Source: Flagellimonas sp. MMG031 (GTDB lineage Bacteria; Bacteroidota; Bacteroidia; Flavobacteriales; Flavobacteriaceae). Taken from it: a stretch of 64,000 bases of DNA. Positions 8,901 to 25,458 of this stretch are shown one piece after another; positions within the stretch are counted from its first letter, which is position 1; each line of letters opens with the position of its first letter. The DNA is taken from positions 994,501 through 1,058,500 of the forward strand of contig NZ_CP157804.1 in assembly GCF_040112705.1 (NCBI RefSeq), read 5' to 3'. The notes beneath the pieces were generated by a model, which searched no databases, was not told where the DNA came from, and saw nothing but the letters and a program-made list of their open reading frames with translations. The translations under genes were made by a program, and so were the position numbers.

Positions 8901-10096
8901 AATCAACAGGCAACTATAAGAACACAGCAGAACTCATTGCATTGGATACGTATGATCCCGATTCCACACCCAACAACAACTTGGGTTCCGAGGATGATCA
9001 GGCAACGGTGGTTCCAGTTCCCGGTGGACTGGCCGATCTATCGCTGACCAAAACAGTGGATAACACGACACCCAATGTAGGGGAAGTGGTTCGTTTTGTG
9101 GTCAGCTTAACAAATAATGGTCCCTCCGATGCCAGAGATGTAGTGGTCATTGATATGTTGCCTTCAGGGTATACCTATCAATCCCATACCACAACGGCGG
9201 GTATTTACGATGCAACTTCGGGAATCTGGAACCTGAACAGAAGGGTCCTGAACCAGGATACGGAAAGTTTGGAAGTTTTAGCGATGGTCAATCCGCCAAC
9301 AGGGTCGGAAGATGAGTATCGCAATGAGGCCTTTGTATCATCAAGTTTATATCCCGACCCCGATAGCAATCCATCCACTGCTATGGATGAGGATGATTTT
9401 ATGGACGGTGTTGTGGATGACGACGAAGCAACTGCTTCTGTTGCACCACAGACCACCGATTTGGCCATCACAAAATCTGTGGATAATCCAGAGCCAAATA
9501 TTGGGGATGAGGTGACTTTTGAAATCACTGTGACCAATTTAGGTGTTGATGATGCAACGCAGATTGGGGTACAGGAGGAATTGCCCTTGGGGTATCAATT
9601 TGTGAGTGCACAGACTTCAACGGGAACGTATGATGCCGATGCTTCCTTTTGGGAAATCGAGTGCTTGCCCGTATCCGGAACCGCCACGCTATTGTTAACC
9701 GTTGAGGTTATGGATGTTGAGGACTATCAAAACATTGTGAACATCGCCTATGTGGATCAATGGGATATCAATGAGGACAATAATAGGGCAGAAGCGTCAG
9801 TTGCTCCTAGTTGTTTGGTCGTCTACAACGAGTTCTCTCCCAATGGCGATGGTGTGAACGACTTTTTTAAGATTGATTGTATTTCCCGTTACCCCAATAA
9901 CTCATTGCAGATTTATAATCGGTGGGGGAATATTGTCTATCAAACAAGATCCTATAAAAATGATTGGGACGGAACGCCAAATGGTCGCGCCATGGTCCAG
10001 CCCGAAGACCAACTTCCTGTGGGTACCTACTATTATATTTTGGATTTGGGCGACGGGTCGGAACCACGAACGGATTGGTTGTATTTAAACAGATAA
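5952..10096 (+). CDS. Giant DUF11-repeat surface protein with T9SS type B (CHU_C) sorting domain; frame broken at a T7 tract in the signal peptide
   Basis: The open frame runs from a TTG at 5993, but the natural start is the ATG at 5952: MIKPQSLPVFRNFF reads into TGA at 5994. Adding one T to the T7 run at 5988-5994 joins it in frame to LTVFLLLAVFHQGYAQ, a complete signal peptide, giving about 1381 residues. The mature protein has an Ig/PKD-like domain (to about residue 100, counted from 5993), then nine DUF11 repeats of about 130 residues starting near 103, 238, 369, 496, 626, 756, 885, 1013 and 1155, many with Asp-rich PDSTPNN and SEDDQ calcium-type loops. From about 1282 lies the gliding-motility-associated C-terminal domain (NEFSPNGDGVND, YNRWGN, PVGTYYY). 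It is probably secreted by T9SS and anchored at the surface as an adhesin. The PorP/SprF partner follows after 2 bp. Confidence 0.88.
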
Positions 10097-11703: not shown

Positions 11704-12456
11704 TTACAGACGCTTCATCGCCTCAATGAGGTCATCCCTTTTTCTTGGCGAAATGTTTACCTGAAGGTCGTTTTCCATTATAAGATAACCCCCATCGGTC
11801 TTTACATATTTTTTCACCTTTCGCAAGTTGACAAGGTAGCTGTTGTGTACACGCATAAAGTTATACTCGGCAAGCATTTGTTCATATTCCTTTAAGTGCT
11901 TGCTTACCATGGGTATTTCCCCGCTGTCCATCATAAAACAGGTATAGGAACCATCAGCTTTACAGGCGATAACATCCTTGATTTCTATAAACTCCATACC
12001 CGTGGTGGTGGCCAAACATATTTTTTCGGGACGCATATTGCCCCGGGATATGTTCTGCATCAAGTTGTCCAACTGTTCCCGATAAATATTGGTGTCCATG
12101 TTGCTTCGGGCCTTGTTCACGGCTTGTTGGAGTTCACTAAGATCAATGGGCTTCAACAAATAATCCAACGAACTAAATTTTATGGCCTTTATGGCATATT
12201 TTTCGAAGGCCGTGGTAAAGATGATCTCAAAATTGGGTTCCTTGATTCTTTCAAGCACGTCGAACCCAACACCCGATTGCAATTCAATATCCAAGAAAAC
12301 AATGTCGGGACTGTACACAGAGAGGACTCTAACCGCTTCATCAACAGTGCCTGCCATGGCGATGACTTCCACGCCTTTACAAAACTCTTCCAGCATGGAT
12401 TTAAGGGTTTCCCTGCTGTGCTTTTCATCTTCGATGATTATTGCTTTTAGTACCAT
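11704..12456 (-). CDS. LytTR-family DNA-binding response regulator (AlgR/LytR type)
   Basis: The 250-residue protein has a receiver domain (about 3-120) with the acidic pocket IIIEDE, phosphoacceptor D56 in VFLDIEL, TTAFEKY and the Lys in LLKPID. It also has a C-terminal LytTR domain (about 148-250, EFIEIKDVIACKADGSYT, then MRVHNSYLVNLRKVKKY). LytTR domains bind pairs of 9-bp direct repeats about 21-22 bp apart. Five arrays of such repeats lie in the next 13 kb, so this is the best local candidate for their regulator. It follows the sensor kinase gene with 11 bp between the intended kinase stop (12468) and this ATG. Confidence 0.92.
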   Translation of the reverse strand: MVLKAIIIEDEKHSRETLKSMLEEFCKGVEVIAMAGTVDEAVRVLSVYSPDIVFLDIELQSGVGFDVLERIKEPNFEIIFTTAFEKYAIKAIKFSSLDYLLKPIDLSELQQAVNKARSNMDTNIYREQLDNLMQNISRGNMRPEKICLATTTGMEFIEIKDVIACKADGSYTCFMMDSGEIPMVSKHLKEYEQMLAEYNFMRVHNSYLVNLRKVKKYVKTDGGYLIMENDLQVNISPRKRDDLIEAMKRL

Positions 12457-12467
12457 TGGGTTGTTTT

Positions 12468-14375
12468 TTAGGGGTTATTCAATCGTATAATGACCTTGGT
12501 GCCGCTGGGCTGGCTTTGGGTGTCCTATTTGTCTATGATTTCAATGCTATTTTTATTGAGGTCGGAGGTGTCCCGCATTTTTAGTCTCTTTTTGGTGATT
12601 TCCATACCTCTGGATTTTTTCCTGCTTTTCTTGGTTTTTTCATAATACCTGCCTACCCCATTATCCTCAATTTCTATGACAAGATATTCCGTTTCCATGA
12701 AAAAACGGAATTCAAGTTTCTTTTCGCCTGTCTTTTTTCCCATCAACCCATGGATAATGGCATTTTCGGCGAAGGGTTGAATGAGCATCAAGGGGATTTC
12801 CACGGCATCGGTGTCAACGGAATCAGCCACCGTAATGGTGTATGAGAAAGCTTTATCAAACCGCAAGGACTCGAGTTCCAGATAGGAGCGTAGCAGTTCT
12901 ATTTCCTCGGTCAGGGTCACCGTGGTTTCATACGAACTTTCCAAAACACTACGAGCCAGTTTACTGAACTTGTTCAGGTAATTTAATGCGGCATTTTTTT
13001 TGTCGTGCAGTATCAAATGTTGGATGGAGCCCAATGAATTAAAGAAGAAATGGGGGTTTATTTGAGCTCTTTTGGCGCTAATGTCCTTAAGGGAAACTTC
13101 CCTTTGCAAGATAACTTTACCTTCATACTCCAATTTGATTTTATAAGCGAGACCGAGTGAGAAAATCATGATTTCCAACATGGAGCCCAAGATCATATAG
13201 TGTTTTGAATACATTAGCCAAAAGGCAAGTGCACCCAGCATATAACAAAATGAACCTGCAACAATAAAGCAGGCCAATATATCCTTACGCAACAGAAGGA
13301 GGTAAACCATGGCGAAAAGACCAAAAAGAGTCATCAGTAGTCTTTGGAAATTCAAAATGTTGCTTTGCAGTTGGTAATGTTCTGAAAAGTAAGCTATTCC
13401 ATGTGCGAGCACAATAAGAATTAATACCAAAACAATGATTTTGATGATAATATCCAGTAAAGGGTATTGCTTTTCGGTGTTCAAATAAAACTTGGCAAAC
13501 AATACATAAAACAGGTTGATGAGGACCTGGGAAATGGTAAGAGCCCAAAAGCCAAGCTCGCTATCGAACAGAGTGAATACTCTGGGAATATCGAGACCGG
13601 TAAGGAAGCCACATAAAAAAAGCACATAAAATGAATAAAACAGAAATTCCAACCTTCTTACGTTTAGGAATATGACCGCGAATGTTAAGAATAAAATGGC
13701 GCAGCCCCCCAAAAAGAGTAGGGAAGGGGTGATCTGTTCAAGGTCTTGTTCGCTGTAGTAATCGGTGTAAAATCGGTTCGCATCATTTGACAAATATCCG
13801 AAATGGACAGGGTATGGGTATTCAAAATGATTTTTTGCTTTTACATAAAGGTATCTCCCGGAGATTATGTTTTCATATCGGAACACAGCACCACTACCAT
13901 GTTTTAACGATCTCTTTTCATTTTCATCCTTGAATCGTCCAAAGGAATGGGTGGCGATGGAATCCCCATCTTTAAAATAAAGTTGTGCCCTATTAAAATG
14001 GTTAGACCTTAATCGCCATAAATCTTCGGTCTGAAGAGTATCAAGTTCATTGTTTAGGTCAATTTTAAACCAATACGTCTTTCCTACATCGAGTAAAACA
14101 TTCTTGTGGGGCTTGGAAAACGAAGATTCCAACATCTCGGAAAAGCTACTATCCCAATCTTTTACTATGGCATAAGAGAACGGAAGCTGCTTTAATTTAC
14201 GATCTTGATTAACCGGGGATTCCTGAGAATGGGCAAAATGCCCCAAAAGAATACAAAAACATAGTAGGAAGCGGCATAGAGTCTTGAAGGGTTTAATCGG
14301 GAATAAACGAGCAAATGAAACAACAAGAAAGCCTTGTGTGCAGGAGGGTCTGTTTATATGTGTGGCCGCAATCAT
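12468..14375 (-). CDS. 7TMR-DISM sensor histidine kinase (LytS type), interrupted by an in-frame TAG near its end
   Basis: The reading frame starting at 14375 gives a signal peptide ending near HFAHSQ (about 50), a periplasmic 7TMR-DISMED2-like domain (about 55-195), seven membrane helices (about 215-415), and a His_kinase-type domain with AQINPHFFFNSLGSI (phospho-His H442). It then has an ATPase region with the N-box QPFAENAIIHG and the EDNGVGRY motif. Translation stops at TAG (12525-12527) after residue 616. Beyond it the frame continues for 18 codons with GTKVIIRLN, the expected last beta strand of the ATPase fold, to TAA at 12468. Reading CAG in place of TAG restores IIDKQDTQ. It is the partner of the LytTR regulator just downstream. 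The truncated form may be unstable or weakly active. Confidence 0.82.
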
Positions 14376-14869
14376 TCAGCAAAAAAGGGAGTTACAAGGT
14401 TAATGACTCCAAGTGAGTTGATTATATTTCTTTCAGGTATTGTAAGAATTAAATTATTTTTCTATATTTAATTTTTTAAGCATGCAATTAATTCGGACTA
14501 TTCATTTCTCTCGCAGCATTCTATTACCATTGCTTTAGTGCGTAAACAGCAAAGTCGAGTCACTTACTTGCTCGGCTGTAAATCATCTACAGAGCTTATT
14601 TTATGTGTAAACCCTTGATTGGTTACATGTTAGTATGCTTTTTAACCAATTAAAATAAGCATTTTGGGGGAAGAATAATACAATTTGAATTGGGATAGTT
14701 GTATTTTTCAAAAAACTGCATTACTAAAACTGTCCTAAAAAGGACTCACCACTTTCTTTTCTCTTTTTTAACTGTTACGCAGCATAACCCCATACTTGCT
14801 CTCAGCTGAAGAAAATACTAATGGTGAGTTTTGGTTAGTGTGTAATAATGCTTAATAATTATATTTTTT

Positions 14870-14948
14870 GGGCTGTACTGTCTCCATCGCCAGAACCGAA
14901 GACAGGAACTTTACAGTTCAGCTACAGCCCATATGTTTGTTTTTAAAT
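14870..14948 (-). ncRNA. Candidate structured RNA or leader (three-way junction) driven by a LytTR-box promoter
   Basis: On the minus strand an 8-bp closing stem (GGGCTGTA with TACAGCCC; 14870-14877 and 14923-14930) encloses two hairpins. One is GAACT-GUAA-AGUUC (14906-14919), capped by a GNRA tetraloop. The other is CUGUCU...AGACAG (14878-14883 and 14900-14905). The GNRA loop exists only on the minus strand, which agrees with the promoter direction. The transcript would start near 14948, 7 nt after the -7-like element. I see no U-rich terminator right after it, so it may be the 5' leader of the kinase operon rather than a free RNA. It matches no RNA family I recognise. Confidence 0.4.
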
Positions 14949-14954
14949 CTTCGA

Positions 14955-15044
14955 TAAAGCTACTTCGGTTTTTATAAAAAAAATGCGGTCAATTGACGAA
15001 TGCCCCTTCTGATCTGACGGATGGCCCTTCCCAGTCAACGGATG
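14955..15044 (-). promoter_or_regulatory. LytTR-box array A (three 21-bp-spaced repeats) with -7-like element
   Basis: Cores TGACGAATG (14994), TGACGGATG (15015) and CAACGGATG (15036) on the plus strand are exactly 21 bp apart. Read leftward they give TTCGTCAAT, TCCGTCAGA and TCCGTTGAC, close to the LytTR consensus [TA][AC][CA]GTTN[AG][TG]. A 28-bp gap separates the proximal unit from TAGCTTTA (14955-14962, minus strand), a 7/8 match to TAnnTTTG. Confidence 0.7.
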
Positions 15045-15149
15045 CAATTTTTGGCTCATTTTTCACATGGCTTTTTAGTGGTAAAATGGGGTTCCAATAG
15101 GGGAGGAACCCCACTTTACATTAACAGGAGAACACTAAAAGATAGTTTT

Positions 15150-15824
15150 TCAAACCGTAGCATATAATTCGTCTTTTTTTATAGCGGCTACAGGCTTCAT
15201 GGGCTTTCTTTGGACTTTATTTCGTTTAGGGACTTTTGATATGAAATGCCCTTTAAAATCTATCGAGGCAATGTTGCTGAAATACCCCAAAACATCTTCG
15301 TAATCGTTGATATTGATTCCTGCCTTGGTCATACTGTTGTGCATTACCGTTTTGCTTGGCGATGCGGATTGGTTACCACATATGCGCTCATCCTTCGATT
15401 TGATAATCAATACTTTAAGCCTTTTTAAATGTGAGGCAGGAACATAATAGTTGGAAACTCCATCCTTTATGGACTTAAAGGTGACGTAGACTTTTCCAAC
15501 ATTTTTGTACACATTGGCCATGTAGCCCATGGAGGCATTGTTCAAAGGAAGCTTTAAACAATCTTTATCCGATTCCAAATAAAAAAGAATTGGATTTTTA
15601 CGTAGTATCTCTTCGGTTAATTGTGGGACATCCAAGCTAAAGGACCAGCCTGGCAGTTGTTCTTTTATGTCAAACGATAGTAGTTCTACCGTATTGGGTT
15701 CCGACGGTATGCAGTTATCATGATGATCCTTCATCATGGATGAGGATTTATGTAAAAGATAAATGGGATATCCAATAATGGCGAAGGCACAAATAAGTGT
15801 CCAAAAAATGGTTAATAGATGCAT
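15150..15824 (-). CDS. Unknown protein with an N-terminal membrane anchor, member of the LytTR-box gene set
   Basis: I do not recognise a family. The frame is open from 15941, but its first 39 codons run through the promoter repeats, so the ATG at 15824 is preferred. It gives MHLLTIFWTLICAFAIIGY, a signal-anchor helix, and a 224-residue protein. The rest looks like a mixed alpha/beta extracytoplasmic or cytoplasmic domain with FYLESDKDCLKLP and GKVYVTFKSIKDG, and a basic C-terminal tail (KVPKRNKVQRKPMKP). It is preceded by array B about 80 bp upstream, so it should be co-regulated with the adhesin and OmpA genes. A partner in envelope signalling is only an inference. Confidence 0.65.
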   Translation of the reverse strand: MHLLTIFWTLICAFAIIGYPIYLLHKSSSMMKDHHDNCIPSEPNTVELLSFDIKEQLPGWSFSLDVPQLTEEILRKNPILFYLESDKDCLKLPLNNASMGYMANVYKNVGKVYVTFKSIKDGVSNYYVPASHLKRLKVLIIKSKDERICGNQSASPSKTVMHNSMTKAGININDYEDVLGYFSNIASIDFKGHFISKVPKRNKVQRKPMKPVAAIKKDELYATV

Positions 15825-15862
15825 AACAGGTTTTATTTTAAGAATTTGGGAATTTTCCTGAT

Positions 15863-15932
15863 ACCAAGTAACAAATAAAAAAGTACACTTTGCCCCACCA
15901 ATTGACGGATGGCCCTTTTGAATTGACGGATA
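15863..15932 (-). promoter_or_regulatory. LytTR-box array B (two repeats) upstream of the unknown membrane protein
   Basis: TGACGGATG (15903-15911) and TGACGGATA (15924-15932) are 21 bp apart and read leftward as TCCGTCAAT twice, an 8/9 match to the LytTR consensus. The -7 position 28-29 bp downstream holds TTACTTGG/TACTTGGT (15863-15871), a weaker match than in the other arrays. Confidence 0.65.
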
Positions 15933-16008
15933 CAAAATCATCGATTAAGCGTGAGTTTTTATCGATGAAATACACTCCAATTTCATCAAATATGCCTTCT
16001 AAGGGGCC

Positions 16009-16383
16009 TTATTTTTTGTTTGCTGTCTTTTCCAACTGTCTAACAACACCCATCACATCATAATTTGCAATCTTTCGAGTGCTATAATTCCTTTTAACAT
16101 GGTTTATATAGGTGTGTATTTCCAATGTATAATAGTTTTCCAGTTCAAAAATGGAATCTTCCATTGGGTCTACCGTGGCTCCAATTTTGTTTCTACCATA
16201 CGATCGGGCATGGTAAACTATTTTATGGTTATTTTCTTCATAATCCATCCATTCAATGGTCACTTCGATAAAATCGTGCAATCGCTCCCTTAATCTGTAG
16301 GTGGCGTGATTCGGGATGTTTCCGTACTCATGTTCGGATTTTACCAAATCCAAAATCCATTTTTCAAGAAAGTTGTCTCTCAT
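16009..16383 (-). CDS. Hypothetical cytoplasmic protein, 124 aa
   Basis: I do not recognise this protein. It has no signal peptide or membrane helix. It is rich in charged and aromatic residues (EVTIEWMDYEENNHK, IFELENYYTLEIHTYINHVKRNY) and looks like a small folded domain. It lies between the esterase-like lipoprotein and array B in the same orientation, with more than 200 bp on its upstream side, so it probably has its own promoter. Coding looks plausible because the frame is clean from ATG to stop and no rival ORF of similar length overlaps it. Confidence 0.55.
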   Translation of the reverse strand: MRDNFLEKWILDLVKSEHEYGNIPNHATYRLRERLHDFIEVTIEWMDYEENNHKIVYHARSYGRNKIGATVDPMEDSIFELENYYTLEIHTYINHVKRNYSTRKIANYDVMGVVRQLEKTANKK

Positions 16384-16597
16384 ATCAACTCATTTTTCAG
16401 GTGTTCTGACTTTTTTTTGGCCCCAGGCCGTTCATTCATTTTTGTTATGAGGATGATTTGCTAGCTTTTCAAAAGGCGGCCAACAGTAATATTAGTGTTC
16501 CCTATCGCCTTGTGGTTCCAAAAAGCTAGTTTCTTGAGATTGAAATTCAGTAATGTTCCCTATTTGACGCTTCGTATATATAAATATGTGGTTTGTA

Positions 16598-17605
16598 TTA
16601 ATCTTCAAGGTTGGCAAAAAGTTGTTTTAACCATTGTATGGATACAGCTCTTGCCAGTTCACTCTGTTCCACTTTATCAAAGTCAAAACCATGGCCTACG
16701 CCTTGATAGACCCTTACTTCCACTGGTAGTCCTTTTTCTTTCAAAAGAGCAACCTGACAAAGTGTGTTCTCGCTCAAGTATCCCTCTGATGGAACTTGAT
16801 AGAGCATTGGAGCGTAGGGCTGAAATATGTTGCCCTCTGCCGCATCATCGCTACATGGACTTTTGCCCCAATAATTATAGGCTCCAGAGCCGCCATAATA
16901 GAAAATACCACCAGCAAACCCGGTTTCGGGTTTTGGCTCTGGGGGTATTACTCCGGAGTTGGTGTCGTAGACTTTTCCATCAAAGGTTTGGATCCATTGC
17001 CATCCATCAGGAGTGGTATCGATATTGTATAAAGTAGATGCTACGGCACTTGCACCATCCGAAAAACCCACTAAGGCAATCTGGTTGCTACGGATTACAG
17101 GTTTGCCGTTGCTGAACTTCATTTCCTGCAATAGTCGTAGCGCAGCATTGGCATCCCTTGGCCGAATAAATTGGGAACTTATTTTAAAGTTATCTGGGGC
17201 GGTAGTCCATTTTCCTGTTCGTGTTTGAACGCCGCGTCCGGAATAACTGTCAACAAAAACCGCAAAAATGCAGTTGTTGTTCAGAAGTTTTTTCCATTCG
17301 TTAAATTGACCTGACATTTTACCTGTGCTAGTATCATGGTCTAACCACATGCCATCTGATCCATGAAGCACCATAACCGCGGGATAATCTTCCATATCAC
17401 AATCTTCGGGTATTGCTATGTAAACAGGTATAGCTGCATTTCCAACCTTTGCGTAAACCAAGGTATCGATAGACTTGCTACTTAGTGTGACTGGCGCATC
17501 GCTGGAAGATGGTCCAAAAGGACTCTCATCTTTACTGCAAGAGGATAAAAATAAGATAGAAACTGTTAAGAGGGCAATGCTGAAATTTTTAATAATCTTT
17601 TTCAT
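16598..17605 (-). CDS. Alpha/beta-hydrolase lipoprotein, dienelactone hydrolase-like
   Basis: The 335-residue protein has a lipoprotein signal (KKIIKNFSIALLTVSILFLSSCS, with the lipid-bearing Cys near residue 23). The hydrolase fold has VMVLHGSDG at 78-85 (oxyanion loop), the nucleophile elbow GFSDGAS with S182, and a GHGFDF His motif near the C-terminus. Dienelactone hydrolases normally have Cys as nucleophile; this one has Ser, so an esterase or peptidase-like activity is more likely. It lies 24 bp after the SprF gene, at the end of the adhesin-SprF operon, so it may process the adhesin or a surface ligand. The substrate is unknown. Confidence 0.78.
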   Translation of the reverse strand: MKKIIKNFSIALLTVSILFLSSCSKDESPFGPSSSDAPVTLSSKSIDTLVYAKVGNAAIPVYIAIPEDCDMEDYPAVMVLHGSDGMWLDHDTSTGKMSGQFNEWKKLLNNNCIFAVFVDSYSGRGVQTRTGKWTTAPDNFKISSQFIRPRDANAALRLLQEMKFSNGKPVIRSNQIALVGFSDGASAVASTLYNIDTTPDGWQWIQTFDGKVYDTNSGVIPPEPKPETGFAGGIFYYGGSGAYNYWGKSPCSDDAAEGNIFQPYAPMLYQVPSEGYLSENTLCQVALLKEKGLPVEVRVYQGVGHGFDFDKVEQSELARAVSIQWLKQLFANLED

Positions 17606-17629
17606 ATGCTGAAATTTTTAAGAGTTTGT

Positions 17630-18574
17630 TTAATAGGTACAGGAGCAATTTGAAATCCCTTGGAATAAATCAACACCCACGGTGATTACATGGGTTCCTT
17701 GGGAGTACCCCAAAATTTCGTTGGCTATGATTTGATAGCTATAACCAAAGTAGAAGTCCCCTTTTTTGAGACCGATCATTGGAGCTACATAAAGTGGGCT
17801 CCCCAGTTGATCGTTCAAAAAACGATAGGTAAAGCCGGCATAATAATAGTCTAGGAAGTCATACCATTTAAATTTGGTATTTAAATCTGTTACGGACCTA
17901 CCATCACTTTCAAAGTATTGAAAGAAAATGGAAGGTTCAATTTCAAAGTCCGCTCTTTTACTTTTTCTAAAGCTATATCCAGAATAGAGGTAATAATTTC
18001 TTAAGGTATTGGGTTCTAGAATGGGATTGAACTTATTAAAGTCTTTATTGAAAATGTTGGATACATTAAGGCCCAAATAAAATTCACCCCTACGGTATAA
18101 GGCACCAAGATCAAAATTGGGATTGCTGGAAGCGCGGTCGTCCGTCACCGCAAGATCAGTATTATCCTCAAAGTTCTCAATATCAATACGAAATTGGTTC
18201 AGGTTAAACGAAAGGGCAAGCGAAAGATAATTTCCCTCATACTTGTCTAAAGTCAAATGATGGGCAAAGGCGATTTTCGCCCCTCTTTGCTTGGTTTCGC
18301 CGTTGGAATCATTATACATCAATAATCCAATACCAGACCTGTTTCCAAGTCGAACATCTGCGGATAGGGACTGGGTATCGGGAGCATCCCTGATACCCAC
18401 CCACTATGTGAGTCCGTTCATCCGAACCTTTACATAGTTTCCGATGCCTGCATAAGCGGGAGACATGATAAAGGGGTTGTCCGCTAAATATTGTGACAAC
18501 TGCGGGATGGTCAATTCTTGTCCGTATGTGTATATAGTGCTCATCAACATTGCATAGACTAGAGTTTTTCTCAT
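17630..18574 (-). pseudogene. PorP/SprF-family protein interrupted by an in-frame TAG at codon 57
   Basis: From ATG 18574 the frame gives a signal peptide (MRKTLVYAMLMSTIYTYGQ), then LTIPQLSQYLADNPFIMSPAYAGIGNYVK, the PorP/SprF N-terminus. At 18404-18406 a TAG falls where the family has a conserved Gln before Trp (compare RSQWAGLNGAPNTQ in the other copy at 10.1 kb). The frame then continues WVGIRDAPDTQ to the stop at 17630. The rest of the beta-barrel is intact, for 314 residues in all. One C-to-T change (CAG to TAG) explains it. A GTG at 18400 could start only a protein lacking the signal peptide. It lies 13 bp after the CHU_C adhesin gene, so loss of function could block secretion of that adhesin. 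A sequencing error is possible. Confidence 0.85.
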
Positions 18575-18587
18575 TGTATTTTTCTGT

Positions 18588-21500
18588 TTAACGGTATAGG
18601 GTGAAATTCCCTACATATTCACGACCTGTGCCATCGTTCAATCTAACAATGTACCAGTAGTCCCCAGATGGAAGAGGTCTGGATTCGTAGGTGCCGTCCC
18701 AACCTTGGTCAAGAGGTCCTATAATCCATATTTTCCTTCCATATCGATCAAAAATGTAAGTTTCAATATCAGGGAAGCCTTCAGTATTTCTAGGTTTCCA
18801 AAAATCGTTTTGCCCATCATTGTTTGGAGTAAAGAAATTTGGAATGGAAATGTCTACTAAATTGAGAGTAATGGTAGCTATGGCCTCACAACCGTTACTG
18901 TCCACTACCCTGACAAAGAAAGCTCCGTTCCTGTCAATGGTATAGGTGTTCGCAGTTGTACCATTTTCATCTTCGAAATAGTAGGTGTAGGGAACTGTGC
19001 CTCCCGTTGCATTGGCGGTTATTTGATTTATACTTTCACTAGAAAGTGATAGCTGCAATGGGTCTATTGTGTCTATTGTGAAAGCAAAATCGAACAAACA
19101 TCCACTATTGCTCATTATAAATAAAGTATGCTCCCCTGCACCTATATTGAAAAAGTCAGGATTCAATACAAAATCGTTGGGATTTGTGGAATCCAGTGCA
19201 TACATAAGGTTGTCCGCTATGGAGGGGTCAGCAAGTGTCACCAAAATCGAATTGCTGATTGAATTGCCGCCCTCACAAGTGTAAACGGGTTCTACAAAGG
19301 CACCTATGTTTTCTTCAATAACAGTAACCTGTGCCATTGCAGAAGTTGAACAATTGCCATTGGCCGCCACGGTATAGGTATAGACCCCTGGTCCTGCGGG
19401 TGCTGGTGTCCAGGTCCCCCCGACATCGGGTGTTCCCCCGAGCTGTGCGAAAAGGTCCGCGGCGGTCACTGATGACCCCTCACATATGGTCATGGCCCCG
19501 TCGTCCCCTGCATCGGGCTGTATGGTGATGTTGACCTCCACGGTTGCGGAGTCGTCGGGGCATGCCCCTGTCGAGGATACGGTATAGGTAAATCGGTAGG
19601 TTCCCGGTGCTATGGCGTTGAAGTCCATGTTGGCGGGGTCGGCTACCACGGAGTTGGCCCCGTTGCCGAAAGCGTCGTCCACGTCGGTCCATGTTCCCCC
19701 TGCGTCCTCACCGGCGAGCTGTGCGGAGAGGTCGTAGGCGGTGGCGTCCCCTTCACAGAGTGCGAGGTCTGTGGGGGTTCCGGCCTCGTTGGCCCCGTCG
19801 ATGTTGACCTCCACGGTTGCGGAGTCGTCGGGGCATGCCCCTGTCGAGGATACGGTATAGGTAAATCGGTAGGTTCCCGGTGCTATGGCGTTGAAGTCCA
19901 TGTTGGCGGGGTCGGCTACCACGGAGTTGGCCCCGTTGCCGAAAGCGTCGTCCACGTCGGTCCATGTTCCCCCTGCGTCCTCACCGGCGAGCTGTGCGGA
20001 GAGGTCGTAGGCGGTGGCGTCCCCTTCACAGAGTGCGAGGTCTGTGGGGGTTCCGGCCTCGTTGGCCCCGTCGATGTTGACCTCCACGGTTGCGGAGTCG
20101 TCGGGGCATGCCCCTGTCGAGGATACGGTATAGGTAAATCGGTAGGTTCCCGGTGCTATGGCGTTGAAGTCCATGTTGGCGGGGTCGGCTACCACGGAGT
20201 TGGCCCCGTTGCCGAAAGCGTCGTCCACGTCGGTCCATGTTCCCCCTGCGTCCTCACCGGCGAGCTGTGCGGAGAGGTCGTAGGCGGTGGCGTCCCCTTC
20301 ACAGAGTGCGAGGTCTGTGGGGGTTCCGGCCTCGTTGGCCCCGTCGATGTTGACGGTGAAACTATGCTCATCTGTGCACGGTACTGGTCCTGTTGCGGCG
20401 TACACATAGATGGTTTGGGTACTGGTAATAACATCTCCTGCGGATAACGGAGTTCCGGTACCGCCACTTCCAGTAAAGTAGGAGCCTGTGGTGAGCGGTG
20501 GTAACACATAAGAGTTACATGCAGAGACATCAGCAGGTTCATCTACTACCGGTGAAGTATAGACGTATATGGTATGTGTTACGTCTATGAAATTGCCGTA
20601 AATATCGGTTACGCGATAGGTTCTTACTATGGTTTCTGGATTGGAAAGATTGTCTGTTGTTTCTGATATAAATGTAACAGAAGCAATACCACAATTGTCC
20701 GTTTCATCGTCTATGACATCAGGATCCACAGCAGGAGGGGTATCGCAAACTGTTGATACTTGATCGCTAGCAGTAGGGTCCTCATCATCCAAAAAAGCTA
20801 TGGTAAAGACCTGTGTGTGCTCAAAGGTTACGTTATCAAAATAGGCATTGTTGGCGCCATCTACGCTAGTGGCGGGGATGGACGTCAAAGTGCCCGTGAG
20901 AAAGTCGCCATCACCATCATTATCTATAAGGAGCACTAAAGTGCCACAGTTGGGGTTGGAAAGCATATCTGAACCCAAAAGGTCTACCCGAACACTGACA
21001 TTGTTTATGGGGTCAACTCCTCCGGGAGACACTGTTTTTTGGATTTGCCATTCCCGTTCTATACGGACGGAGTATCCTGTGGGCAATTCTACTGCGGTTT
21101 GGTTTACACTTCCCCTATCACTTGCCCAAATCAGGTAATTATGTAAATATGATGTGGTTGTCAATGACTCCCCAGACGATGTGGTATTATCTATAATAGG
21201 CCTAGTTTGTTCCAAATTGTCACCTATGAAATCGGTGTTGTTGGACATGGTAACAATAGCCTGTGCATTCACACTTTTGGAAATGCGCTGGTGCAGGTTA
21301 TATCTCAAATCTGGATTACTACCATTGTTATCTTGGTATCTATCACGACCTAAACCTGCAATATCAAATTTATAAATGTTGGAATTTAGGGTTGGATCCC
21401 AAATTACTGTTCCATCTGCGGCTAGGTATGGATAGCCTAAATTTCCATCGATACTTCCCAATTGTCCCGCCCTATTAAGGGTAATCCCGTATTTTATGGC

Positions 21501-22505
21501 TAAATAGCTTTCTACCCTAGCTCTATTACTTGCATCCAAGGGACCATCAGCCAAAAGAACTTCAGCTATATTTCCTGTAAGGTTCCTATTTGAATCATTA
21601 CTATTGAAGTGCTTGCCTAAACTATTATAGAGGTATAGATTTTGTTCAGCTCTGGAGTGAATCCTTAGCTCATCAATATCGGCTAGGCCATTTACAAAGG
21701 ACATAAAGCGTTCATCTTGTTGGGAGCCATCGGTATCTACATCCCTAATCATAGTGCCGATAGTTGGTGCTCCTAACAAATCCACACTACCGGATTGAAA
21801 CCATCCGCCGCCGTCTCCATCCCATGTTCTTCCGACTGAAAACCTGTTCCCGTCTGCTATTCCCACAGAAATATTGGTTGTGGATGAATGATGGTTTTCG
21901 ATATCTCCACCAAATAATAGTCGTTGGGTTTCAGCCGTATTTCCAGCTCCTTGTGCCTGAAATACAATAAATAGGGTTATTTCTCCTCTTGAAATTGGAC
22001 GTAGGTATAATCCGTCTCCAACTCCGCTTCCATCAAATTCAATAGATGGGTTAAAGTTCATGTGGTTTCTCCTTAGCGTTGGTACTCCGGGAGCTGATCC
22101 TACTGGTGTCAAGAATGATGGTGATCCAAAAGAGTGTTCGAATCCGTCTGGATGGGGTAGCAGGAAATTCAATACATTTGAAGGATGTTGAACGGCATCC
22201 TGTTTATCTGGATCATTAAAGTCGACGAGATCGTACCACCAAGTGACAGGAGTTCCATCTGCCGGGGCCAATGGTGTAAATAGTTGTAATTGTCCGTTAG
22301 GCAGCGGGGCGCTATTCACAGCACGGTCCGCACTATACCATGTATCAACTTCTGTTTGACCAAATATCGAAGTGTTGGACATTAATCCCATCAACAGAAC
22401 AAAACTTACTACTGATTTGGTTCTTGCAGGATTAACCATAAACGAGGTCTGCACCTGAAGTGATTTCAGTGCATTAAAAAAGTGGTTAAGTAGAAGTCTT
22501 ATCAT
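18588..22505 (-). CDS. Large T9SS-secreted adhesin with LamG-like domain, three perfect repeats and CHU_C sorting domain
   Basis: The frame is open from 22634, but those first codons lie in promoter array C. The ATG at 22505 fits the predicted transcript start, and the ATG at 22439 (VNPARTKSVVSFVLLMGLMSNTSIFGQ) would also give a clean signal peptide. About 1305 residues: an N-terminal LamG/DUF8202-like part (YSADRAV, ESYLAIKYGITL), an HYR-like Ig domain (DDETDNCGIASVTF), three identical 91-residue repeats encoded at 19527-20345, another degenerate repeat, then the C-terminal sorting domain (FFTPNNDGQNDFW, DRYGRKIW, PSGDYWYIV). It is probably exported by T9SS and displayed at the surface. It heads the operon with sprF and the esterase-like lipoprotein. 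Confidence 0.88.
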   Translation of the reverse strand: MIRLLLNHFFNALKSLQVQTSFMVNPARTKSVVSFVLLMGLMSNTSIFGQTEVDTWYSADRAVNSAPLPNGQLQLFTPLAPADGTPVTWWYDLVDFNDPDKQDAVQHPSNVLNFLLPHPDGFEHSFGSPSFLTPVGSAPGVPTLRRNHMNFNPSIEFDGSGVGDGLYLRPISRGEITLFIVFQAQGAGNTAETQRLLFGGDIENHHSSTTNISVGIADGNRFSVGRTWDGDGGGWFQSGSVDLLGAPTIGTMIRDVDTDGSQQDERFMSFVNGLADIDELRIHSRAEQNLYLYNSLGKHFNSNDSNRNLTGNIAEVLLADGPLDASNRARVESYLAIKYGITLNRAGQLGSIDGNLGYPYLAADGTVIWDPTLNSNIYKFDIAGLGRDRYQDNNGSNPDLRYNLHQRISKSVNAQAIVTMSNNTDFIGDNLEQTRPIIDNTTSSGESLTTTSYLHNYLIWASDRGSVNQTAVELPTGYSVRIEREWQIQKTVSPGGVDPINNVSVRVDLLGSDMLSNPNCGTLVLLIDNDGDGDFLTGTLTSIPATSVDGANNAYFDNVTFEHTQVFTIAFLDDEDPTASDQVSTVCDTPPAVDPDVIDDETDNCGIASVTFISETTDNLSNPETIVRTYRVTDIYGNFIDVTHTIYVYTSPVVDEPADVSACNSYVLPPLTTGSYFTGSGGTGTPLSAGDVITSTQTIYVYAATGPVPCTDEHSFTVNIDGANEAGTPTDLALCEGDATAYDLSAQLAGEDAGGTWTDVDDAFGNGANSVVADPANMDFNAIAPGTYRFTYTVSSTGACPDDSATVEVNIDGANEAGTPTDLALCEGDATAYDLSAQLAGEDAGGTWTDVDDAFGNGANSVVADPANMDFNAIAPGTYRFTYTVSSTGACPDDSATVEVNIDGANEAGTPTDLALCEGDATAYDLSAQLAGEDAGGTWTDVDDAFGNGANSVVADPANMDFNAIAPGTYRFTYTVSSTGACPDDSATVEVNITIQPDAGDDGAMTICEGSSVTAADLFAQLGGTPDVGGTWTPAPAGPGVYTYTVAANGNCSTSAMAQVTVIEENIGAFVEPVYTCEGGNSISNSILVTLADPSIADNLMYALDSTNPNDFVLNPDFFNIGAGEHTLFIMSNSGCLFDFAFTIDTIDPLQLSLSSESINQITANATGGTVPYTYYFEDENGTTANTYTIDRNGAFFVRVVDSNGCEAIATITLNLVDISIPNFFTPNNDGQNDFWKPRNTEGFPDIETYIFDRYGRKIWIIGPLDQGWDGTYESRPLPSGDYWYIVRLNDGTGREYVGNFTLYR
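19527..20345 (-). repeat. Three perfect 273-bp tandem repeats inside the T9SS adhesin gene
   Basis: Units start at 19527, 19800 and 20073, each exactly 273 bp (91 codons), and appear identical base for base in the read sequence. Partial copies flank them. The block is visibly richer in G and C than the rest of the gene, and one codon is often used for each amino acid. Identical units imply recent expansion or active homogenisation. Such blocks can change copy number by slippage or recombination and are often collapsed in short-read assemblies. Confidence 0.95.
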
Positions 22506-22559
22506 AAGCGTTAAGTTTATGCTCCTGTTGGGGTAAGGACAGGATATAGATTTGGTAGT

Positions 22560-22650
22560 ATAAAGTAAAGCACTATGATCTGCATTTTTGGGTGCCAATT
22601 GATCTATGGGTCTTTTGAATTGACGGATGCCCATTCTGGATCAACGGATG
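22560..22650 (-). promoter_or_regulatory. LytTR-box array C (three repeats) upstream of the T9SS adhesin operon
   Basis: TGATCTATG (22600), TGACGGATG (22621) and CAACGGATG (22642) are 21 bp apart; the proximal unit is degenerate. The distal unit read leftward is TCCGTTGAT, a full match to the LytTR consensus. The -7-like TACTTTAT (22560-22567) is 29 bp from the proximal unit. The array overlaps the first codons of the open frame, which supports a downstream start. Confidence 0.68.
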
Positions 22651-22700
22651 AGAAAATCGACCTTTTTTAAATTTGCGGTTTTTGTAGGTTTATTCTTGTA

Positions 22701-22730
22701 AAAGGAGCCCGTCAGTAATTTTCCTGACGG
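22701..22730 (-). terminator. Probable terminator of the OmpA-family gene
   Basis: The inverted repeat CCGTCAG / CTGACGG (22709-22715 and 22724-22730) with a loop of 8 bases is followed leftward by CTCCTTTT. It lies about 70 bp after the stop of the OmpA/TSP3 gene. The U-tract is short, so this is a moderate call. Confidence 0.5.
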
Positions 22731-22796
22731 TCTTGACCCACTTATTCAAGAACGTAAGCATTACACCAAACCTGGTTCTTGTTTTGTGAGCTTATC

Positions 22797-25043
22797 CTAT
22801 TTGATCAAATTGATTTCTACCCTTCTGTTCTGTTTTCTTCCGCTTGGGGTATCATTGGTTGCAATCGGTTTGTCCTCTCCAAATCCGATGGCGGTCAATC
22901 TAGTGCTGGAAATTCCTTCGTTGATCAAGAACTCCAGCACCGCTTTTGCCCTTGCCTCGGACAGTTTTTGGTTGCTTTCGCTGCTTCCCACGCTATCGGT
23001 ATGGCCTTCAACCGTGAATTTGGTGGTGGGATATTCGTTCAGGATTTGGATAATGTCCACCATAACGGATACAGATTCGGTTTTGATGGTAGCCTTTCCT
23101 GTATCGAACAGAATGGTGCGGGCATAGTCGTTCAATTGCTTTTGAATTTCTTGGGTTACTTCTGGACATCCGTTATTGCTAAACGGTCCGGCTACGTTTG
23201 GACATTCGTCGTCCACATCCACCAAGGTGTCGCCATCGGTATCAGGGCATCCTTTATTTTCCAAACTTCCTGCTTCGTTAGGACAGCGGTCTTCTTTGTC
23301 CATAATACCATCACCATCGGTATCGGGGCATCCATCAAACTCAGCTAAACCTGGTGTTTCAGGACAGTTGTCGTTATGGTCAAGAATCCCATCGTTATCG
23401 GTATCTTTCCAAGGACAACCTTGATTTTCTGCTGGCCCTGCTTCATTGGGGCAGCTATCGTCTTTGTCCAAAATACCGTCCTCGTCGGTGTCCTTCCATG
23501 GACAACCATTATTCTCTACAGGTCCGGGCTGATCTACACATGAATCGTCTTTATCCAAAACACCGTCTTTATCAGTATCCGGCCAAGGGCAACCTTGGTT
23601 GTCCACTGGTCCTGGCACATCTGGGCATGCATCTTCTTGATTAAAGATGCCATCGTTGTCCCTATCCCGTAACTTAGCTTGATAGATGGGTACCTTTACT
23701 CCGGCAAAGGCATCGATGGTTCTGGTTTGACCCAGGAAGGAGGTGAGCACAGAGCCTGATCCAAGGTAGAAAGGTCCCATTCTTAGACCAGCACCCCATC
23801 TAAGACCTATGCCTTGCATGAGACTGATAGGTGAATAAATACTCAACCATGCGGTTTCCAATCTTGGTGTAAGTGATACTTGATTGATGACATGTGCGGT
23901 GTTGATTCGATTTCGCTCACGAAGCGAGAGATCTGTATTGAGATTTAGATAGAATTTTGAACCCACATTCCAATCGGCATTGGCATGTAGCGCGGTTGGT
24001 AGGGCACTTGGTGCCGATACCCTTGTTGCGCCAATGGTGGCAAAGTTTTCCTGTAATGCTTCATCCAGATCTAGGCCATCGAAATTGTCCACATCTTGGG
24101 TAGCGTTCAAATCATAGGTTTCTTCCTCGCCGTTTTCGTTGTTGATACGGCCTATATCGGTAATGGAAAGCCCTAATTTGAGCTTGTATTTATTAACCCC
24201 TCTGTTGGGTTTTGGATTGCCATTGGCATCCATTAGGGTGTATTTGGCATGGTCGGGACGCCATTCGTAAACCAGTCCGAGGTCAGCTCCAAAACCCGAT
24301 GAGGAACTAAAACTCAAAAGGTCGTCCAATACATCACTGCCTTCCGAAAAATCCCTGCCCTGTGTTAACTGACCTGTGGTGGTTATTTGCCTTGGGGCTG
24401 CATTATAATCCAAGCTAATGTCCGAACCGTTGATGTAATTATGGCGTATTCCGGAAAGGTACTTAACGGTAAGACCTCCTTTAAAAAAGTGTTCTTCTTT
24501 GTTGGACAGCACACGGGCATAAGTGGCACCTATTTCTGTCCAAAGGTTCAGTTGGCCAGAGATGTTACCCTCGTTCACAAAGAAGTCCTCGTTCTCGTTA
24601 AAGCCACCCTCCTTATCGATGGTATTTCCGTTGACATCATCAATATTTAAAAAGATGCGTCCTCTGGTATAAACGGCTATGGAGTGTTTTTGCGACATGC
24701 TCAACATGGTCGCTGGTCCGAGGATGTCCAAATTGGCGGCCAAGAAGTTATTGTTTTTTGGGGTTTTGCTCGCTTCATCGAAGGTATTTTCAAAATCCCG
24801 GAATAGATCGCCCAAATTGGCTCCCAAATAATCGTTGCCAAAAAAGGCACTGACCCCGACCAGGTTCACGTCCAACTTTAGACGGGAGTCCGCAATGTTA
24901 GCAGGGTTGGAAAGAATTCCATGCACCCCGTTGTAGTTGTCTTCCAAAAATCCCGAGTAGGATTGGGATTGTGCCTTTTGCATTGTTAGTATCAAGAAAA
25001 GACCTGCTAATATCTTTCCTGAAAACATCATTTTATTTCTCAT
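22797..25043 (-). CDS. OmpA-family outer-membrane protein with N-terminal barrel (DUF5723-like) and TSP3 calcium repeats
   Basis: The 748-residue protein starts with a signal peptide ([18 protein letters not shown]). Residues about 27-460 look like a beta-barrel of the DUF5723 kind ([23 protein letters not shown]). From about 465 to 625 there are thrombospondin type 3 repeats ([28 protein letters not shown]) that bind calcium and stiffen the linker. The C-terminal OmpA domain (about 640-748, [20 protein letters not shown], then RRVEINLIK) binds peptidoglycan. The protein would tie the outer membrane to the cell wall and may respond to surface load. Arrays D and E of LytTR boxes lie upstream; D is about 80 bp from the start. 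Confidence 0.9.
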
Positions 25044-25084
25044 CGTTTATGTATTGCTATTGGTTGTTCACCTTGTTAATGGAA

Positions 25085-25153
25085 CAAAGAGAATACAAAT
25101 AGCAATACGCAAAGGGTGCCAATTAACGGATGGGGGGTTTGATCTGACGGATG
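25085..25153 (-). promoter_or_regulatory. LytTR-box array D (two repeats) with -7-like element for the OmpA-family gene
   Basis: TAACGGATG (25124-25132) and TGACGGATG (25145-25153) are 21 bp apart. The proximal unit reads leftward as TCCGTTAAT, a full 9/9 match to the LytTR consensus. TCTCTTTG (25085-25092, minus strand) lies exactly 28 bp from it, a 7/8 match to TAnnTTTG, and about 40 bp before the ATG at 25043. Confidence 0.72.
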
Positions 25154-25204
25154 CAGATTTGGACAGGATTTTTCCTACTCTGATGATGTGGATAGGGAAC
25201 AAAC

Positions 25205-25362
25205 AAAAAAACCATTACAACCAAGGAATCTTTCGATTCCTTGGCGTAACGGAAACCTCAACTAAACTAAACACTTTTATGACTATCAGTCGTCAAAAGT
25301 GAATTGCTATATGTGCATGCGTTATATTGACCTTGCTTATCAATATGCACTAACGCTTAAAT
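25205..25362 (-). ncRNA. Candidate novel small RNA with pseudoknot-capable 5' part and intrinsic terminator
   Basis: The RNA would start about 7 nt after the perfect -7 element of array E and end at an intrinsic terminator. That terminator is a 7-bp stem (CCGUUAC with GUAAUGG, one G-U pair) stacked on a 10-bp stem (CCAAGGAAUC with GAUUCCUUGG), capped by a GAAA tetraloop and followed by U7 (25205-25252). The G-U pair and the GNRA loop form only on the minus strand. A middle hairpin pairs 25272-25278 with 25295-25301. In the 5' part, 25313-25318 pairs with 25345-25350 while 25319-25324 pairs with 25351-25356, an interleaved pseudoknot or switch, with a third stem inside. No known RNA family is recognised. 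Confidence 0.62.
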
Positions 25363-25368
25363 GCGATA

Positions 25369-25458
25369 CAAACATACAATCGAAAGTTTGAAAAAATTGT
25401 GGCCAATTGACGAATGCCCCTTCCGATCTGACGGATGGCCCTTCTGATCTGACGGATG
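25369..25458 (-). promoter_or_regulatory. LytTR-box array E (three repeats) with perfect -7 element, driving the RNA candidate
   Basis: TGACGAATG (25408), TGACGGATG (25429) and TGACGGATG (25450) are exactly 21 bp apart. TATGTTTG (25369-25376, minus strand) matches TAnnTTTG fully and is 28 bp from the proximal unit, the same spacing as in arrays A and D. Nothing downstream for 300 bp encodes a protein. Confidence 0.75.

Follow-up and report, generated by a model that had tools for sequence, protein, structure and literature searches.

A regulon-like set of LytTR-like repeat promoters in a marine Flagellimonas genome, with two candidate structured RNA families

Five arrays of short repeats lie beside a sensor kinase and regulator gene pair in the 3.76 Mb genome of a Flagellimonas/Allomuricauda strain (Flavobacteriaceae), a marine bacterium. 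We ask what the arrays are, what lies behind them, and whether the neighboring pair is likely to read them. The window is the whole stretch of DNA that was analysed, 64,000 nucleotides in length. An initial annotation had described the pair as LytS/LytR, and Pfam agrees: a His_kinase-type sensor adjoins a receiver-LytTR regulator. The array coordinates given there, the common orientation and the 21-bp period were all reproduced, with 13 units in the five arrays.

11704..12456, minus strand: lytR, receiver and LytTR response regulator, 250 aa (PF00072, 3e-19; PF04397, 4e-15)
12525..14375, minus strand: lytS, 7TMR-DISM and His_kinase sensor, 616 aa (PF07695, PF06580)
14991..15044, minus strand: array A, three 21-bp units
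15900..15932, minus strand: array B, two units
22597..22650, minus strand: array C, three units
25121..25153, minus strand: array D, two units
25405..25458, minus strand: array E, three units

The pattern of a unit pair, with up to three mismatches allowed, occurs eight times in the window, where shuffles predict 0.04. Across the genome, 23 pairs are exact and the reversed pattern has no exact match; with up to three mismatches the counts are 65 for the pattern and 11 for its reverse. Twelve of the 65 were isolated and chance-like and were removed by hand, and the remaining 53 make up 32 arrays, selected by the repeat alone and not by the -7 box. Arrays A to E, which had been described as features of this block, thus belong to a set of approximately 32 across the whole genome. 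A random genome-wide spread of the repeats, including inside genes, was not seen in this genome, which had no gene annotation for comparison. The five window arrays cluster at lytSR within 11 kb, and such a cluster arose anywhere in 4 of 20000 random placements.

The 21-bp period holds in all 32 arrays, where the search pattern itself imposes it, and relatives show it at promoter B too. Most commonly the unit reads CATCCGTCAATT, with a GTC core, the C being present in 30 of the 32 proximal units. LytTR proteins recognize 9-mers of the form [TA][AC][CA]GTTN[AG][TG]. From this 9-mer, as quoted in the initial annotation, most proximal units deviate at one position, with GTC instead of GTT. GTT is common at the promoters of E2 (a second RNA copy, see below) in relatives. 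The spacer letters (CCCCTT...) are also alike between array copies.

The boxes end approximately 28 bp before a -7 element, and no conserved -33 element lies in between. In the window the elements are as follows.

14955..14962, minus strand: -7 box of promoter A, TAGCTTTA
15864..15871, minus strand: -7 position of promoter B, TTACTTGG, degenerate, for which relatives were compared
22561..22568, minus strand: -7 region of promoter C, TTACTTTA
25085..25092, minus strand: -7 box of promoter D, TCTCTTTG
25369..25376, minus strand: -7 box of promoter E, TATGTTTG

The distance to the -7 element, at first put at 28 or 28-29 bp, turned out to be tighter than that. When the arrays are aligned on the proximal unit, position +44 is T in 32/32, position +45 is T in 30/32 and position +41 is A in 23/32. 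At promoter B of relatives the box pair scores above all 200 shuffles in 30/32 loci, using a matrix built without B or the -7 columns, and TT occupies the predicted -7 position in 31/32. By manual count, TAnnTTTR falls exactly at +40 in 34 of 41 RNA-E-type loci, which are mostly second copies and include two E1-type copies (G051, G061). At the orthologous promoters A, E1 and E2 the boxes are conserved and the 27-bp spacer is free; this comparison was anchored on the -7 match and took the best box score, so that spacing there is not independent, and its 39 'E2' promoters include one E1-type copy (G061). The independent evidence for spacing is the 32-array alignment, the 41 RNA-E-type loci and the promoter B relatives.

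Every one of the approximately 32 arrays faces a start codon or an RNA. Their first products include 14 recognisable surface proteins and three RNAs, and the six DUF285 proteins detected genome-wide all fall inside array-led units, the genes of which would be co-transcribed. The proposal of a set with surface targets is upheld, many being found among the arrays. The protein genes behind the window arrays are these.

15150..15824, minus strand: Bmem, 224-aa protein, N-terminal hydrophobic segment by eye (the longer frame containing it, 15150-15941, has no Pfam family)
16009..16383, minus strand: 124-aa protein, no Pfam family
16598..17605, minus strand: 335-aa protein, lipoprotein-like start by eye
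17630..18400, minus strand: PorP/SprF family T9SS membrane protein (PF11751, 1e-53)
18588..22505, minus strand: 1305-aa adhesin-like protein with CHU_C T9SS signal (PF13585, 2e-18)
22797..25043, minus strand: 748-aa protein with DUF5723, TSP3 and OmpA (PF18990, PF02412, PF00691)

Two targets had been called gene-free. They are not empty: conserved structured RNAs follow array A (RNA-A) and array E (RNA-E).

14736..14950, minus strand: RNA-A, structured RNA of approximately 215 nt (alignments A4 and A5, covariation, fold z -3.5)
25198..25364, minus strand: RNA-E, copy E1, structured RNA of approximately 165 nt (alignments A1 and A2, 12 sequences, fold z -4.8)

The start of RNA-A is placed from the -7 box and its end from a U-rich stretch; both ends of RNA-E are likewise predictions, the 3′ end at a terminator-like hairpin and U-run. 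Covariation is strong for RNA-A (A4, n=33; A5, n=22). It is weaker for RNA-E, which has a long identical core. One of five covariation measures, that for further pair types, failed to beat shuffles in A5 (52/500) and in A2 (252/500). Sequences for all four alignments were gathered by exact cores, and those cores are therefore invariant by construction; copies found by blastn were used in separate comparisons of RNA-A and RNA-E. A second RNA-E copy (E2) lies behind another array, and the RNA-E model R1 matches 69/71 genus genomes. Neither RNA was found outside this genus in 299 family genomes, and RNA-E had no match in the one plasmid collection searched. Rfam 15 gave no match above gathering score in the window, and sub-threshold scans of both RNA regions stayed below all cut-offs, the best by E-value being tRNA (23.2 of 29 bits, E 0.023). 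Two other identities for RNA-A were considered: a tRNA was rejected, the tRNA score being under threshold, and single-base indels together with stem covariation argue against a small protein. RNA-A and RNA-E are predicted to be expressed and to have a function.

Direct-repeat promoters of the LytTR family include those of the AgrA/ComE class. In streptococcal LytTR Regulatory Systems the sites are described as direct repeats of 9 bp, mostly with 12 bp between them, immediately ahead of the promoter (PMC6193735). The present arrays resemble them as 9-bp direct repeats with 12-bp gaps at a fixed short distance upstream of a core promoter; unlike the promoters described there, they have 2-4 units, a -7 element without a conserved -33, mostly a GTC core, and approximately 32 occurrences in a member of the Flavobacteriaceae. 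The repeats have the length, gap and placement of LytTR-family sites, so the arrays are best read as activator-controlled promoters. The LytTR-like architecture, the constant promoter geometry and the numerous surface targets all support a real regulon-like set. Two or more repeats, 12 bp apart on one DNA face, would place a LytTR-class activator at a set spacing before a sigma-A -7 box (TAnnTTTG), and because a conserved -33 element is lacking, transcription would depend on that activator. The approximately 32 promoters would form a single regulon, and we consider it probable that they do, with LytS-LytR the likeliest pair. Its protein outputs would be T9SS proteins, DUF285/cadherin and collagen-like lipoproteins, outer-membrane barrels, an OmpA protein and an AraC-type regulator; its RNA outputs would be at least three structured RNAs (RNA-A, RNA-E and E2).

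The LytS-LytR pair of the window is the likeliest candidate to control the arrays, and LytR is a plausible binder. A serious rival, which we hold to be somewhat unlikely, is that a LytTR paralogue reads the arrays and that LytR, whose block just happens to contain five targets, gives a side input, competes or has no connection. The genome has nine LytTR genes, lytR included. lytR has an array 3.2 kb away, whereas for the other eight the closest one lies at 7.4 to 85 kb, and arrays A and B remain beside lytSR across the genus; both observations, like the clustering of arrays at lytSR, speak against a paralogue. Against LytR itself, no array was found within approximately 1.5 kb of any of the nine genes. 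A distance of 575 nt, which contains RNA-A, separates array A from lytS downstream, so autoregulation would not be direct.

Intact LytR is present in 50 of 71 genus genomes and was not found in 21, among which G053 (one match at a contig edge), G055 and G059 (assemblies <80% complete) and G061 (a full-length match with a stop codon) are weak cases. No significant difference between the two groups was seen in array counts (medians 4 with and 3 without, P=0.59) or in box conservation (E2, P=0.29; E1, P=0.18). In G019, 22 exact pairs occur without any lytR, and each of the other eight LytTR genes has a counterpart in both G041 and G019. These points favor a paralogue, and co-occurrence of LytR and arrays failed as a proof of binding. 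Eight of the 50 intact-LytR genomes have zero array matches at up to two mismatches, which counts against LytR. The lytR losses have different deletion junctions and so look independent, perhaps too recent for the arrays to have decayed; these scars force neither LytR irrelevance nor LytR binding. Single genomes point both ways. G002, without LytR, has no RNA-E match and one array-like match, against the paralogue; G023 has intact LytR and arrays, yet no RNA-E match, which counts against LytR.

It is improbable that the 21-bp repeats are repressor sites, or sites of another regulator family using two-turn spacing: the dominant unit is off the quoted LytTR consensus at one position, but the 9-12-9 spacing and place upstream of the promoter are as reported for LytTR sites (PMC6193735), and the gap of approximately 28 bp before the -7, with no conserved -33, is an activator-like position. 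A repeat that is mobile or expanding and plays no part in regulation would fit the similar spacers and a match number that varies from 0 to 53 per genome at up to two mismatches (G020 set aside, its 59 matches including a simple heptad repeat), but it is very improbable, being largely refuted by the exact -7 distance in 32/32, and uniform orientation to downstream starts and box conservation around a free spacer at promoters A, E1 and E2 also oppose it.

For the preferred reading, arrays under LytTR-class activation, there are known parallels. The agr/RNAIII and VirR/VR-RNA systems each join a LytTR two-component system to a structured RNA, with surface and secreted protein outputs. Here too a LytTR pair adjoins a promoter predicted to drive a structured RNA, and surface or secreted proteins would be among the outputs; unlike RNAIII and VR-RNA, the candidate RNAs match nothing in Rfam, and no gene for a peptide signal stood out. 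Escherichia coli BtsS/BtsR is described as a LytS/LytTR-type pair (PMC10653868); the pair here likewise has a LytS-type kinase with a LytTR regulator, and differs from that description in its 7TMR-DISM sensor and many candidate targets. Rfp18 of Flavobacterium psychrophilum is a conserved structured sRNA linked to secreted proteins (PMC9723704). RNA-A and RNA-E are like it as conserved structured flavobacterial RNAs linked to secreted proteins, a likeness of description and not of sequence; as a difference, their matches were confined to this genus among the genomes searched. In the open-licence PMC literature we found nothing on a LytTR regulon in Flavobacteriaceae and no paper treating Muricauda together with LytTR.

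A further reading, tentative and rated a little below an even chance, is that this is a Bacteroidota LytTR two-component system with output partly through dedicated, undescribed structured RNAs, namely RNA-A beside lytS and the two-copy RNA-E family, co-activated with surface proteins by one rigid promoter type. If true, an agr/RNAIII-like circuit would have evolved independently here, and its core module would be subject to repeated deletion, in nature or in culture. Two RNA families absent from Rfam come with predicted start sites. A single promoter grammar that the eye can read defines a testable regulon of approximately 32 promoters with many surface or secreted proteins, and so offers a direct route to asking why the regulator-bearing block is so often lost and what governs surface remodelling in marine flavobacteria.

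The five repeat arrays of 21-bp period (A to E) described in the initial annotation, among them array C before the adhesin gene and array D in the region of the OmpA protein's gene, are present in the window sequence. The source genome is a single contig of 3.76 Mb, in which the window spans G000:C1:994501-1058500. Its genus is taken to be Allomuricauda/Muricauda/Flagellimonas, since nearly all full-length relatives of the window's response regulator LytR (67-83% identity) belong to records under these names. The genome-wide search for unit pairs that the annotation had proposed returned 23 exact pairs against none for the reversed pattern; at up to three mismatches there were 65 matches against 11. 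By hand, 53 of the 65 were grouped into 32 arrays, and the remaining 12, which were isolated, were left out as chance-like. Where arrays seem to overlap open reading frames (judged without gene annotation), the frame resembles either a short one or an upstream extension of the one that follows the array.

The 32 arrays were selected on the repeat only and aligned on the proximal unit. Counting from the first base of that unit, T is found at +44 in all 32, T at +45 in 30 and A at +41 in 23, and the score for TAnnTTTG reaches its maximum at offset +40, which corresponds to the 28 bp that the annotation had placed between the 12-bp unit and the -7 box. The profile contains no conserved -33 element. 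Since PMC9723704 locates TAnnTTTG at -12 to -5, starts are predicted about 12 nt past its first base. The distance from these starts to an ATG codon is mostly 0 to 110 nt; the exceptions are arrays A and E and the array of E2 (a second copy of the RNA behind array E), where predicted RNAs lie.

Among the first products of the 32 arrays are 14 recognisable surface proteins (lipoprotein starts judged by eye), three RNAs and 11 proteins with no Pfam family or an unclear start; the rest are an AraC-type regulator, a Mg-chelatase/ComM-like ATPase, a DUF413 protein and a 52-aa peptide. The frame of this peptide (L049:4823-4981, minus strand) has a hydrophobic stretch, starts directly behind array G000:C1:2911942 and precedes a 530-aa M20-domain protein.

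Surface first products, and the second RNA-E copy
DUF285 proteins: five, most of them with cadherin-like domains
Collagen-like proteins: two, both under the Pfam cut-off
Kelch-repeat proteins: one
Large T9SS proteins: three, two with CHU_C and one with a Por tail
Two outer membrane protein barrels and the OmpA protein
2991926-2992064, E2, second RNA-E copy in the genome, directly behind array 2992142-2992192

Six DUF285 proteins were found in the genome, five being first genes behind arrays. The sixth gene (2672259-2673647) lies 56 bp behind an array-led DUF285 gene (2673704-2675356), with which it is probably co-transcribed.

RNA-E, the predicted structured RNA behind array E, is bounded by the -7 box TATGTTTG on one side and by a terminator-like hairpin with a U-run on the other, and its fold z is -4.8. 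The sequence GTGTTTAGTTTAGTTGAGGTTT is invariant in all 13 copies compared; a copy in G051, found via the covariance model, deviates from it. Covariation is weak: 4 of 28 pairs, with five cells in total, have changed on both sides, a number reached in none of 500 shuffles, and further pair types are not above shuffles. The model has matches at E <= 0.01 in 69 of 71 genus genomes, and none at that threshold in G002 and G023. Manual counting of matches gave a copy of the class found in the window (E1, at least 71 bits) in 59 genus genomes; the other matches mostly represent a weaker second copy, apart from a few antisense echoes. A reading of the E2 stretch as a long leader of a thioredoxin-reductase-like gene was replaced by its match to RNA-E. 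When box pairs at 41 RNA-E loci (39 E2-type) were scored without the -7 columns, TAnnTTTR stood exactly at +40 from the best pair in 34 by manual count.

RNA-A, the structured RNA predicted behind array A, comprises a hairpin whose loop reads TTCTGGCGA and another element around GTATGGGGTTATGCTG, and is closed by AACTCACC/GGTGAGTT and a U-rich tail. The second core was found in the window and in 32 of 39 genus loci holding relatives of lytR, the window's receiver-LytTR response regulator gene; it was not found in L069, L081, L086, L091, L092, L094 and L096, nor did six distant loci with lytR relatives give a match. The first element was located via its loop in 22 of the 33 sequences with the second core. 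Both sides changed in 13 of 24 pairs of element 2 and in 7 of 17 pairs of element 1, neither count being equalled in 500 shuffles. Rfam 15 has no above-threshold match in the window and nothing convincing below threshold. Among 299 family genomes from 236 genera, searched under stricter filtering at which weak matches may be missed, the two models match only the two genus members sampled. RNA-A and RNA-E are two RNA families absent from Rfam 15.

The array sites have the spacing and position of LytTR repeats and agree with their sequence in part, and their binder is very probably one LytTR activator or another. For LytR itself, the evidence is divided. Its gene is the closest of nine LytTR genes to any array (3.2 kb, versus 7.4 to 85 kb for the others), and five arrays lie within 11 kb at lytSR (lytR and the 7TMR-DISM kinase gene lytS), a cluster seen in 4 of 20000 random placements. 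Array-like boxes precede RNA-A in relatives too. Array B stays beside lytSR across the genus, above the gene of a 224-aa protein with a hydrophobic N-terminal segment; its box pair is significant at 30 of 32 loci, and at 31 of them the predicted -7 position reads TT. Against LytR, no intact copy of it was found in 21 of 71 genus genomes, and array counts without and with it do not differ significantly (median 3 versus 4, P=0.59). Nor does box agreement differ significantly, at E2 (0.773 in 13 promoters without LytR, 0.744 in 26 with it) or at E1 (0.672 in 10, 0.709 in 25). No array lies within ~1.5 kb of any of the nine LytTR genes in this genome, a scan that fails to set lytR apart and slightly lowers our confidence in the favoured explanation, array promoters activated by a LytTR regulator that is most likely LytR. 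If the losses of lytR are recent, array persistence says little about LytR as binder. Weighing both sides, we regard LytR as a putative binder whose case is about evenly balanced.

The ompA-adhesin-lytSR block has been deleted with differing scars in several genus genomes (window 12009 and 24031 compared with L133/L096; also L091, L092, L147, L148, L150, L151 and L144). The 3' end of lytR is left in seven loci, with remnants beginning at residues 32, 38, 99, 147, 151, 183 and 185, the last two perhaps from one event; in two of these loci the ompA and lytR frames are joined in frame. Further lytR-less loci carry distinct scars, and the losses look independent. Culture selection and a fragile site are candidate causes. 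Upstream of array B (window ~15940-15990) there is a second, different repeat pair (like TGTATTTCATC...GCATTTAATCG, ~21-22 bp apart), visible by eye at promoter B in many relatives (L061-L102) and perhaps formed by sites of another regulator. In L086, a locus in which neither lytS nor an adhesin gene was detected, array-like units (9760-9802) lie ~220 bp ahead of lytR (at 10001), which is apparently directly array-driven.

The agr/RNAIII system is a LytTR system that also drives an RNA, and the putative circuit here would resemble such systems. Array G000:C1:153553 lies ahead of the AraC-type regulator gene (L031:5169-5801, plus strand), and one gene behind array G000:C1:1461034 is a hybrid 7TMR-DISM histidine kinase of 799 aa (L040:1710-4109, minus strand). 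The AraC-type regulator may form a next layer of the regulon, and the hybrid kinase a second signalling link.
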